Below, one piece after another: positions 49,038 through 52,524 of a stretch of 52,524 bases of DNA. Numbering within the stretch: position 1 is the first letter of the stretch; each line of letters opens with the position of its first letter. Below the pieces are notes generated by a model that saw only the letters and a list, made by a program, of their open reading frames with translations, did no database searches and was not told the DNA's origin. Source of the stretch: Pseudomonadota bacterium (GTDB lineage Bacteria > Pseudomonadota > Gammaproteobacteria > Nitrosococcales > Methylophagaceae); contig JALIBN010000030.1 of assembly GCA_030576275.1 (NCBI GenBank), forward strand, positions 1 to 52,524. The letters run 5' to 3'. A program made the position numbers and the translations under genes.

Positions 49038-50978
49038 ATGATACATCCTTTGAAAATTGTTTGGCTGTTGATGGTATTGGCTTTGCTGATACCTCTGCAG
49101 CCGCTTTTCGCAACGCCTACAGCCCCCGTGAGTGATATTCGAGTATTAATCGATGTCTCGGGGAGTATGAAAAAAAATGATCCTAATAATTTACGTGCGC
49201 CTGCACTTCGATTGATAGTCGGATTGTTACCTAGTGATTCTATCGCGGGAACTTGGACATTTGGTAAGTATGTCAACATGTTAGTACCATTGCGTGAAGT
49301 AAATGATACTTGGAAATTAGAAGCCGAATTACAATCTAAAAATATTCATTCTTATGGTTTGTTTACTAATATTGAACAAGCGTTAAATAAAGCAACCGCT
49401 AACCAAAAAGGCATTGATCCTCGTTATCGTCGTAGTGTTATATTATTATCAGATGGCTTGGTAGATGTCTCGAAAGATGACAAGATCAATGAAAAATCTC
49501 GTCAACGAATCTTAGATAACATTGTGCCTCGCCTCAAAAAAAATAATGTTGCAGTTCATACCATTGCTTTATCTAATTCTGCTGATCATAACTTGTTACG
49601 CGCTATTTCATTAGCAACAGATGGTTGGTATGAACAAGTTGATAATGCCGATCAATTACAACGCGTTTTTCTTCATTTGTTTGAAAAAGCAGCAACGCGG
49701 GATACAGTTCCCCTAGTTGAGAATCAATTTAAGATTGATAACAGTGTCAGTGAAATGACCCTACTGATCTTTCGCCGTGAAGGTTCAAAGTCAACTGAAT
49801 TGTTATTACCTAATCAATCTCGTGTTAGCCTAAAAAATATGCCAAACAATGTTCGCTGGCACAGTGAAGGCAATTACGATTTGATAACGATTGATAAACC
49901 ACTTGTTGGTCAATGGCAGATCGATGCTGATATTGATCCTGATAATCGAGTCATGATAGTGACAGACTTGAAATTAAAAACAACAGATCTACCCAATAAT
50001 ATCTTAATTGGTGAAACGTTTGATTTTGATGTGAGTTTGACCGATAAAAATAAGCTAATCGTTCGTCAAGATTTTTTGAAATTGGTAGATGCCAAACTCA
50101 AAGAAGAGTCAGCAAACGCTGATCCTGTACATCGCAGTTTGAACGAAGAACAAAAGAAAGGCATCTATCGTACTCACGTTGGTGAAAATTTTCAGGCAGG
50201 TCAGAATGATCTGGTTATTACTATGACTAGTGCCACCTTTGAACGGCAACGTAGACAGAGCATTAATGTTGTCGAAACGCCTTTTGAAATGACTGTGGAA
50301 CAACTTACTGATAAGGTAACACGCACACATCGCCTGACATTGAAACCTGATGTCGACTTGATTAAGACTGACAAGCTCAGCATCGCTGCAATGCTGACCG
50401 CCCAAGATGGAAGTGAATGGTCGTATGATGTAATGAAGGTTGCTGATAACGAATGGCAATTGACGCTGGCTGATTTACAAATAGGTGAAAAATATACTGT
50501 GGCCTTACAGATTCGTGCTCAAACAGTGAAAGGGCGGCCATTATTTCTGCAACCTGCAGTAATAGAATTACTTGATGATCAAGTCGTTACAAAAACTGAA
50601 ATATCAACTGAATTACCTAAAAAAGACCACATTACACCAGAAGTTGAAAATGAAACTCCAGAACAAACTATAACACCTGAAACTATGCCTGAAGCAAGTG
50701 ATGAACAACAAGCCATTGTTGCTGATCAGGAGGTAGAAAAAACAATAACTGAGCGGGTAATCGATGAAATGTCTGGGAATGCAGATAGATTACTACCTGA
50801 AGTCACTAATGAAGTACCAAGTTTACTAAACGCCGCTGATAAAACAGAACAACAAGGCCTAAGCACCGCCAGTCAATTAGCAATAGGTAATGGTCTTCTC
50901 TTACTAATGATCGGTTTAGGCGTTTTCTTCTGGCGACGTAAGAGTGCAACCAGCACTAATCCTGGGGAGCAATTATAA
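49038..50978 (+). CDS. Exported von Willebrand factor A domain protein, membrane-anchored at the C-terminus
   Basis: Likely periplasmic with a C-terminal membrane anchor. The frame is open from a TTG at 48984, but the ATG at 49038 starts a signal peptide (MIHPLKIVWLLMVLALL..., cleavage near LFA|TPT) and is preferred (646 aa). The vWA domain follows at once with a full MIDAS motif, LIDVSGSM, then LLPSDSIAGTWTFGKYV and ILLSDGLVDVS. Two beta-rich regions and a Glu/Thr-rich linker precede the final helix GNGLLLLMIGLGVFFW and a basic tail. Similar vWA proteins exist in other gammaproteobacteria without assigned function. Its TAA is directly followed by the ATG of the next gene. Confidence 0.85.
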   Translation: MIHPLKIVWLLMVLALLIPLQPLFATPTAPVSDIRVLIDVSGSMKKNDPNNLRAPALRLIVGLLPSDSIAGTWTFGKYVNMLVPLREVNDTWKLEAELQSKNIHSYGLFTNIEQALNKATANQKGIDPRYRRSVILLSDGLVDVSKDDKINEKSRQRILDNIVPRLKKNNVAVHTIALSNSADHNLLRAISLATDGWYEQVDNADQLQRVFLHLFEKAATRDTVPLVENQFKIDNSVSEMTLLIFRREGSKSTELLLPNQSRVSLKNMPNNVRWHSEGNYDLITIDKPLVGQWQIDADIDPDNRVMIVTDLKLKTTDLPNNILIGETFDFDVSLTDKNKLIVRQDFLKLVDAKLKEESANADPVHRSLNEEQKKGIYRTHVGENFQAGQNDLVITMTSATFERQRRQSINVVETPFEMTVEQLTDKVTRTHRLTLKPDVDLIKTDKLSIAAMLTAQDGSEWSYDVMKVADNEWQLTLADLQIGEKYTVALQIRAQTVKGRPLFLQPAVIELLDDQVVTKTEISTELPKKDHITPEVENETPEQTITPETMPEASDEQQAIVADQEVEKTITERVIDEMSGNADRLLPEVTNEVPSLLNAADKTEQQGLSTASQLAIGNGLLLLMIGLGVFFWRRKSATSTNPGEQL

Positions 50979-52524
50979 ATGGATATAGTTCTAGATATGC
51001 TGGCTTATGAATTAGCGGCGGTATTTGCTGTTTTGAGTCTTTGGCTCATTTTGCGAAATAATAAAAAAGGTAAAGCTACACATGAGATAGCAAGTCAAAC
51101 CGTTGAAAAAATAAAAAAATCTAAAGATCTTAGAATTGAAAGTTTATCTAAAATTTTAGCCGAAAAGTACGGATTGACTGGTAACGCGTTATCGCAAGAA
51201 GCCACCGATTTTCAAAACCGCGAACAGCAAATATACAAAGTATTACTCACCGTTTTTGTTGAACAAGATGGCAAAGCCTTGCTGAATATTCCAGAACAAT
51301 TAGAAAAGGCGATTGATGCTAGTTTAGAACTATTGCCCGTGGGGATGCCCATCTCTTTGCCGGAGGTTGATGACAGTACGCTGACGGTAAGTGAGCAAAT
51401 AGAAACAACCGCACAACATTTAGAAGCGTTGATGGTTTTATTTAGACAAAATAATGATGAACAGCTTGTCAAAAAACAAGCTCCAGAAACAGATGATGGA
51501 TCTGAAAATGAAATTGATGTGTCAGCGGTCGATGGGCATGTTGATAAACAAAATGATGATACTGCGGTTGATGAAGTATCTGAATCATTTGAAACTCACG
51601 TTGAATCTGAAGTTCTTGTCGAAGAAGAGTTAGCAGAAACAGCAATACAAAAAGATGATGCTATTGAAATAGACATTACTGAGGAGGAAGAGCTCTCAAA
51701 TAGTCTATTCGATGACTTAGCAATTCCAGATACGGGTGTAAGTGAACAAACAATTAATGATGCTATGTCAGCAGACGATGTTGATGCCTTACTTGCTTCT
51801 ATGGATGATGAGCTTCAAGCTGATAGCGACGATGACGGCATTGATTTAATCGCTATAGATGCCGAAGATGGAATCGAGGAGCAAAGTCTAAAAAAGTCTG
51901 ATGCTGAATTAGTGGCTGTAACCGCTGATTTAGCTACAAGCATTAGCGATACACCAGAAGAATTAGAGATTACAGCCAAAACTGAAGATGCTGGAGAGCT
52001 TGACGTTGAAGCTGAACTAGAGGTCGAAGTTGAAGTTGAGCCAGCAGTTGAACCTGAAAATCCTGTAGCTCAGAAAAAGATGAGTGATTATATTAAGGGG
52101 GTGTGGACCAGTAGCGTGCCTGATATCTATGGCAAGGCTAATGTTGAATCTGAACCAGAAGTTGAAGCAAAGCCAGAATTCGAAGCTGAACCAGAATTCG
52201 AAGCTGAACTAGAATTCGAAGCTGAACTAGAATTCGAAGCTGAACTAGAAGTTGAAGCTGAACTAGAAGTTGAAGCTGAACCAGAATTCGAAGCTGAACT
52301 AGAATTCGAAGCTGAATTAGAATTCGAAGCTGAACTAGAAGTTGAAGCTGAACTAGAAGTTGAAGCTGAACCAGAATTCGAAGCAGAGCCAGAATTCGAA
52401 GCTGAACCAGAATTCGAAGCTGAACTAGAAGTTGAAGCAGAGCCAGAAGTCGAAGCTGAACCAGAATTCGAAGCTGAACCAGAATTCGAAGCTGAACTAG
52501 AAGTTGAAGCTGAACCAGAATTCG
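50979..52524 (+). CDS. Membrane-anchored acidic protein with C-terminal hexapeptide repeats, 3'-truncated
   Basis: Open from ATG 50979 (GGGGAG 9 bases upstream) past the window end; at least 515 residues. Residues 6-25 form one membrane helix (MLAYELAAVFAVLSLWLILR), followed by a basic then helical region (to about residue 165) and a long Glu/Asp-rich disordered stretch. Residues 264-278 read SADDVDALLASMDDE, like the xDxIDALL motif at the N-termini of FliM/FliN and some regulator proteins. From about residue 390 it is made of six-residue units EAE(P/L)E(V/F). It has no stop codon in the window. Gene overlap with the vWA gene suggests a shared role. I cannot assign a function. Confidence 0.8.
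   Translation, partial: MDIVLDMLAYELAAVFAVLSLWLILRNNKKGKATHEIASQTVEKIKKSKDLRIESLSKILAEKYGLTGNALSQEATDFQNREQQIYKVLLTVFVEQDGKALLNIPEQLEKAIDASLELLPVGMPISLPEVDDSTLTVSEQIETTAQHLEALMVLFRQNNDEQLVKKQAPETDDGSENEIDVSAVDGHVDKQNDDTAVDEVSESFETHVESEVLVEEELAETAIQKDDAIEIDITEEEELSNSLFDDLAIPDTGVSEQTINDAMSADDVDALLASMDDELQADSDDDGIDLIAIDAEDGIEEQSLKKSDAELVAVTADLATSISDTPEELEITAKTEDAGELDVEAELEVEVEVEPAVEPENPVAQKKMSDYIKGVWTSSVPDIYGKANVESEPEVEAKPEFEAEPEFEAELEFEAELEFEAELEVEAELEVEAEPEFEAELEFEAELEFEAELEVEAELEVEAEPEFEAEPEFEAEPEFEAELEVEAEPEVEAEPEFEAEPEFEAELEVEAEPEF
52164..52523 (+). repeat. Tandem 18-bp coding repeat, 20 units
   Basis: Twenty contiguous units of GAAGCTGAAC(C/T)AGAA(TTC/GTT) variants, no gaps, reaching the window edge. 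Units 3-7 and 8-12 share the same order of variants, showing a 90-bp higher-order duplication. Encodes EAE(P/L)E(V/F). Confidence 0.95.

Follow-up and report, generated by a model that had tools for sequence, protein, structure and literature searches.

The locus described here compares most closely with polar membrane proteins of flagellar motility and with the CheY-binding peptides of FliM and CheZ. HubP carries an acidic cytoplasmic repeat region, which differs in size between close species and is linked to flagellar motility (PMC8789113, PMC12918733; here and below, papers are cited from excerpts). In V. cholerae, MotV and MotW are HubP-dependent polar membrane proteins that regulate motility. 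MotW combines a signal peptide and a periplasmic region with a C-proximal helix and a short basic tail. MotV, on which changes of swimming direction depend, consists of an N-proximal helix and a helical cytosolic part, and mutations in FliM, FliG, and CheV4 suppress the loss of MotV (PMC8789113). FliM binds activated CheY through its N-terminal peptide, with contacts that include L6, Q8, and D12 in the E. coli complex, and CheZ uses the same face of CheY as FliM (PMC3774744).

The window, by which we mean the whole stretch of 52,524 nucleotides analysed, ends inside a gene for an acidic membrane protein, hereafter the tail protein. Its left part (50979..52524; this and all features below lie on the + strand) is listed as an ORF of 515 aa, open at the window edge, where a 100-N scaffold gap starts (contig C30, L003:3626-3725), and beyond this gap the gene reaches contig position 53491. 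The anatomy given in the earlier note holds at each point checked. The single N-terminal membrane helix covers residues 8-26 by eye (51000..51056), is supported by a LAYE...K signature conserved in alignment A1, and is also a helix in a low-confidence structure model; since basic residues follow it directly, the C-terminus should be cytoplasmic. A conserved helical N-domain, common to the gammaproteobacterial relatives in alignments A1 and A2, occupies residues 29-122 (51063..51344), and a further helical segment at residues 137-158 (51387..51452) is predicted by the low-confidence model only. The long acidic region claimed in the note is equally clear, with D+E making up 36% of the 385 aa past residue 130 in the left part, and by its sequence this arm is probably cytoplasmic and disordered. 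Within it we find the mid-protein SADDVDALLAS motif, here delimited as the FliM-N-like motif MSADDVDALLASM (residues 263-275, 51765..51803) from pattern, profile, and conservation, followed by two short segments, LKKSDAELVAVTADLATS (51888..51941), which recurs in several orthologues, and KKMSDYIKGVWTSSVPDIYGKA (52074..52139), which recurs in orthologues in up to three copies.

The arm then enters a tandem array of 18-bp units encoding EAExEx, with a 90-bp higher-order period, which ends in the assembly gap (52146..52524). We count 21 full units from 52146 to 52523 left of the gap, in agreement with the 20 or more first reported; this is rejected as a finished repeat count because the array enters the 100-N gap. 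Tandem Repeats Finder (TRF) gives a period of 18 with 21.1 copies and 88% matches, and a period of 90 with 4.2 copies and 91% matches, and the duplication proposed for units 3-7 and 8-12 is seen as 1 difference in 90 bases (0.989). To the right, where the note expected the rest of the protein, the repeat units resume and give way to a further acidic C-terminal region, which extends to L003:4589, with the stop codon to 4592.

The tail protein thus shares with HubP/FimV a single membrane anchor and a long acidic repeat-rich region, whose cytoplasmic side we infer. It differs in having about 7 residues before the helix, where HubP/FimV have a periplasmic LysM domain, as well as in its unrelated N-domain and its operon partner, a gene encoding a vWA protein. 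It may resemble MotV/ZomB (VC1909) in its N-terminal helix (by eye) and in a helical domain seen in the low-confidence model only, but an acidic repeat arm such as that of the tail protein is not described for MotV/ZomB in the excerpt of PMC8789113.

A search of the named collection with the tail protein returned a single match, in a Methylophaga MAG (L002, 77% identity in the best segment), and a plasmid search returned no match. The source organism is itself related to Methylophaga. Among 59 related genomes (own included), the tail protein is present in 27, of which 26 belong to the window's own family, f1 (36 genomes, G000-G035). Two rounds of widening gave the N-domain profiles A1, which detects the domain in 28 class genomes, and A2, which detects it in 81/369 at E<=1e-3, some of the A2 matches being weak (G094, G198, G336). 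The window's own N-domain has no match above cut-off in Pfam or NCBIfam. Across its relatives, in tallies of the best 25 of 133 and the best 25 of 240 families, the matches are scattered, the best being NCBIfam TraP (5/33 members, best E 6e-7) and Pfam ZapB (2/33, 3.9e-5, best among the families listed), and were taken as helix/coiled-coil noise. The N-domain family is without convincing Pfam or NCBIfam cover among the families listed. Matches of whole relatives to Trypan_PARP, ClfA/ClfB, and TonB involve repeat-composition models and are far under the cut-offs, and matches to solved structures, mostly designed or coiled-coil proteins among the matches listed (best E 4e-6), were discarded. FipA/DUF2802 (PMC11620751, excerpt) was considered and dropped, there being no Pfam match. 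Structure models built from two-row alignments reached a mean pLDDT of 52.2 for the N-domain and 37.6 for the vWA protein, both too poor for a fold search to be used.

The operon partner (49038..50978) encodes a signal peptide (by eye), a vWA domain, a TIGR03503-like region, and a C-terminal membrane helix (by eye). We place its start at ATG 49038, where the ORF list has TTG 48984, and its stop codon abuts the start codon of the tail gene. The vWA domain matches Pfam VWA (PF00092) at 7.8e-12, with 46.2 bits against a gathering score of 23.8, and the second half of the protein matches TIGR03503 with E 3.2e-45 and 154.7 bits, under the cut-off of 305.6; no match at 1e-3 was found among solved structures. 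A vWA gene with a TIGR03503 region lies directly upstream of the tail gene, on the same strand, in 50/51 loci (own included), mostly with a spacing of 0 or a few overlapping bases and at most 376 bp (L109). In 40 further loci an upstream vWA gene is present in 36 (34 by the gap filter; in the other two, L218 and L232, the tail ORF had been drawn too far upstream), giving 86/91 in total, with L099, L229 (contig edge), L235, L239, and L242 as exceptions. The last three, all from one genus, have no vWA gene nearby and no genomic TIGR03503 hit at 1e-10. The vWA gene of L049 is broken into two frames of 467 and 154 aa by a frameshift or sequencing error, and in L238 (G384) two tail-type ORFs stand close together behind the vWA gene.

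The same pairing is seen at the level of whole genomes. Among the 369 class genomes, TIGR03503 accompanies the tail protein in 75/81 tail genomes (p=6e-47; this and the other co-occurrence p-values overstate independence, given the shared descent of related species). In 6 of the 28 genomes that are TIGR03503-positive and A2-negative (G123, G196, G308, G348, G385, G402), a weak A2 match with E of 0.003-7.1, mostly membrane-helix similarity, occurs directly downstream of the TIGR03503 gene, which suggests that the partner may reach past the detection limit. The tail and vWA genes are a conserved two-gene module.

The vWA protein resembles MotW (VC2232) in its signal peptide, periplasmic region, single C-proximal helix, and TIGR03503-like region, and differs from it by an extra N-terminal vWA domain and by adjoining a tail gene. 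The TIGR03503 cut-off itself is exceeded in only 2/369 class genomes (G179 and G387, with ORFs of 439 and 502 aa). The 374-position model covers these ORFs from positions 1 to 373, which leaves no room for a vWA domain, and a hydrophobic stretch and a basic tail lie at their end. In both genomes the ORF sits beside ORFs reading by eye as rnhA and dnaQ. From this architecture and the rnhA-dnaQ neighbourhood, together with the Vibrio locus numbers, TIGR03503 probably corresponds to MotW. A literature search with Vibrio locus tags and dnaQ found no paper, and neither did one for TIGR03503 plus FimV, TIGR03503 being absent among the matches listed. In the excerpt of PMC12918733 MotW is described as specific to V. 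cholerae, which speaks against a wide MotW family under that name.

The module follows flagella. FliM was detected (E <= 1e-20) in 190/369 class genomes, 170 of them over the family cut-off and 20 below it. Genomes with the tail protein have FliM in 73/81 cases, the other 8/81 being without a FliM hit, compared with 117/288 of the genomes without the tail protein (p=1e-16), and FliM is present in 96/103 TIGR03503 genomes (E<=1e-10). Within the 36 genomes of f1, FliM occurs in 25/26 tail-positive and 3/10 tail-negative genomes (p=1e-4), the exceptions being G020, tail-positive without FliM and 84% complete, and G002, G024, and G026, tail-negative with FliM and assembled in 200-380 contigs. The tail profile found no tail protein in 16/16 searched genomes, the same profile having matched in other genomes. 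Four FliM-positive genomes of f2, another family of the same order (G038-G041), are all without the module, which shows that it is not needed for flagella as such, and the tail and vWA genes are not beside fliM. In the window's own genome, two successive FliL-like ORFs (by eye) lie upstream of fliM (L140). We consider it very probable that the module belongs to flagellar/chemotactic control, and we describe it as a conserved two-gene membrane module that accompanies flagella across the sampled Gammaproteobacteria, with a tail partner devoid of a convincing library label.

The most specific link to the motor is the motif in the arm. In a DNA pattern search of both strands, the strict form D[DE][IVM]DAL[LF] matches twice in the whole 2.37-Mb genome, in the tail gene and at C8:61562, at the start of fliM (C8:61547-62500), and the reversed control pattern matches 0 times in the same 2.37 Mb on both strands. 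With two matches against none for the control, the motif in the tail protein is above chance. The own FliM N-terminus starts MAVHDILSQDEVDALLSGM, and the two peptides of this genome can be compared directly, SQDEVDALLSGM in FliM and SADDVDALLASM in the tail protein. The earlier note had described the motif as FliM/FliN-like; the start of the own FliM and the genome-wide pattern bear out the comparison with FliM, whereas the one with FliN is unsupported, since only FliM and the tail protein match the pattern in this genome.

Conservation of the motif in orthologues, on which the note had made its idea of a protein-interaction tag depend, is also observed. The loose form [ILMV]S.DD[IV]DALL.G, applied so as to accept variants such as DAIL, DSLL, and EALL, is found at residue 216-304 in 22/22 f1 proteins that pass about residue 300 (own included), 13 of the 22 having the strict motif and the other 9 the looser form only. 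The four motif-less f1 proteins are three contig-edge fragments (L039, L047, L057) and L046. In the alignment of the 22 proteins, no 12-column window outside the N-domain is better conserved than that of the motif (0.70), the medians being 0.26 outside and 0.63 inside this domain. In 15/27 sequences a profile derived from FliM outscores all 300 shuffles, and it reaches p<0.05 in 6 more, the six remaining being L039, L046, L047, L052, L056, and the own right-hand fragment. The strict pattern occurs in 17/92 tail hits versus 1/469 background proteins from the same loci, and by the looser pattern some relatives hold many copies (14 in L036, 7 in L035, 6 in L044, 5 in L043). Outside f1, the strict motif is found in 4/64 class-level partners (shuffles average 0.01) and the looser motif in 6/64 (shuffles 0.14); with so few strict motifs outside f1, the module can exist without the motif.

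The correspondence with the CheY-binding peptide of FliM is one of sequence motif, at an internal position. In the E. coli FliM numbering, S7, D12, A13, L14, and L15 are retained in the tail motif and Q8 is not. The Gln8 contact of the E. coli peptide (PMC3774744, excerpt) therefore has no equivalent. The FliM peptide is N-terminal, whereas the tail motif lies mid-arm on a membrane tether and is multiplied in some relatives. Neither the FliM middle domain nor its C-terminal SPOA domain was found in Pfam and NCBIfam scans of the tail protein, and a search of solved structures with the FliM N-peptide matched no FliM chain.

A second, weaker likeness concerns the other end of the protein. The tail C-terminus SNQDELQSILSSIPSF resembles the end of the own CheZ, NNQDEVDDLLSSLGF, but its CheZ-like motif has no aspartate (acidic residue) and further residues come after it, the protein terminating in SNQDELQSILSSIPSFTEMNKKH. 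A CheZ-profile scan places its best site at the C-terminus in just two sequences, L041 and the own right-hand fragment, the latter outscoring all 300 shuffles. The end ILSSIPSF is present in 7/11 complete, uninterrupted f1 proteins and in the own right-hand fragment, and Pfam scans found no match to the CheZ domain (PF04344) in the tail protein. We regard this likeness as suggestive only. The genome G010 has FliM, a tail protein without the ILSSIPSF end, and no CheZ hit.

We hypothesize that the tail and vWA proteins act together at the inner membrane as a two-protein module of the flagellar/chemotaxis apparatus. The vWA protein would be periplasmic and held by its C-terminal helix, and the tail protein would be anchored by its N-terminal helix, with its long, negative, disordered arm reaching into the cytoplasm and presenting one or many peptides resembling the FliM N-terminus. 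Most probably the arm would capture CheY itself or a related receiver (CheV, for example) at the membrane, close to the motor or pole, and the captured receiver could act as a local reservoir, sink, or tether that alters the signal reaching FliM. The acidic repeats would serve as a spacer, or as a copy-number device where the motif lies within the repeat. Judged on sequence features, this is the best explanation as a whole, and we give it an even chance; whether the motif binds a CheY-type receiver in this way is, taken separately, about evenly balanced. The tail protein would then act like HubP, as an acidic membrane scaffold, and like FliM, as a CheY docking site, being a member of neither family by the features tested. 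The note had found no functional assignment for this protein; this stands insofar as the N-domain has no convincing library family, but a lead now comes from the vWA partner, from the co-occurrence with FliM, and from the neighbour's probable relation to MotW.

A more daring version, which we put forward tentatively, is a membrane-anchored CheY sponge that presents FliM-mimic peptides, at least one and in some proteins more than a dozen, along a repeat-tunable acidic brush and is encoded together with a periplasmic vWA/MotW-type sensor, and in which repeat expansion would shift motor bias through the buffering or positioning of CheY~P. The tail protein is predicted to rival FliM in binding CheY-type receivers. 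Should this hold, chemotactic signalling would have a membrane-bound buffer whose capacity is set by a fast-evolving repeat number, and a vWA/MotW-type periplasmic protein would be tied to motor control. Literature searches on FliM-like or CheY-binding motifs and on vWA proteins with flagella returned no such membrane protein in the titles and abstract starts of the matches listed.

The tail protein might instead be a general polar scaffold of the HubP/FimV type, whose acidic arm recruits many clients and whose motif is a generic amphipathic docking site, not specific to CheY. The plan is indeed that of HubP, an anchor and an acidic arm with repeats that vary between close species (PMC12918733, PMC8789113), the arm holds several further short conserved segments, and MotW, the probable relative of the vWA neighbour, is HubP-dependent (PMC8789113). 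Nevertheless, Pfam and NCBIfam scans of the own tail protein on both sides of the gap and of five complete relatives found neither a LysM nor a FimV/TPR domain; for the C-terminal FimV/TPR domain, nothing reached 1e-3 in the own right-hand part or these relatives. Moreover, the strict motif matches FliM and, beyond the tail protein, nothing else in the genome. We consider such a scaffold rather doubtful.

The gene neighbourhoods bear on whether the captured receiver would be CheY itself. An upstream gene cluster of window-metZ length is common to 22 f1 loci and to no other family, and flanks otherwise differ. Among 55 operon-like neighbours from other families, pooled as unrelated sequences in alignment A3 only for joint scanning, the receiver domain (Response_reg) is the most frequent Pfam family (4/55), followed in the tally by 3 TPR. 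A REC-TPR protein is encoded just downstream of the tail gene in L102 and L241 (Pfam), and the neighbour in L104 is probably also REC-TPR from its place, its length, and the tally. In L226 (G225), a gene for a CheW+receiver protein (CheV-type, Pfam) directly follows the tail gene, and in L210 (G085) a cheV-like gene (by eye) directly follows the vWA gene. These neighbours fit a receiver-binding arm, but they are a small share. They could also mean that the motif binds a receiver other than CheY, such as CheV, a REC-TPR response regulator, or a pilus-type receiver, as could the suppression of MotV loss by removal of the CheV4 receiver domain in V. cholerae (PMC8789113, excerpt). We think this unlikely: the 4/55, from a receiver scan that covered the other families, is small, and in f1 the module is flanked by different gene clusters, similar to one another in 22 cases upstream and in 10 downstream.

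The comparison across relatives, made between species with one genome per species, shows array length and repeat type to be strongly different; a loose pattern counts anything between 0 and 74 EA-type units in the f1 proteins. Repeat types include EAEPEV, EPEP, and ETDIDALLEQ, so that some are EP runs and some contain the motif itself. Among the 26 f1 tail loci, the contig stops within the gene in 11 and the sequence includes N/X in another 4; the relatives that are complete and uninterrupted, 11 in number, range from 307 to 2505 aa. D+E stays at 26-42% past residue 130 in all listed tail proteins except the 117-aa fragment L057. That the acidic array reflects neutral slippage within a disordered linker tolerant of it, only the N-domain and the vWA partner mattering, is improbable: unit type and length do differ between species, the own units match at 88%, and there are complete relatives of no more than 307 and 445 aa, but acidity is retained whatever the repeat type and short motifs are conserved within the variable arm, the FliM-like one in all 22 proteins.

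Two relatives stand out by their EP repeats. The 2505-aa protein of L053 (G034) contains an unbroken EP run of 143 residues. In L046 the tail ORF seemingly runs on, through ambiguous bases within EP repeats, into a C-terminus that looks TonB-like by eye; this is probably a mis-assembly.
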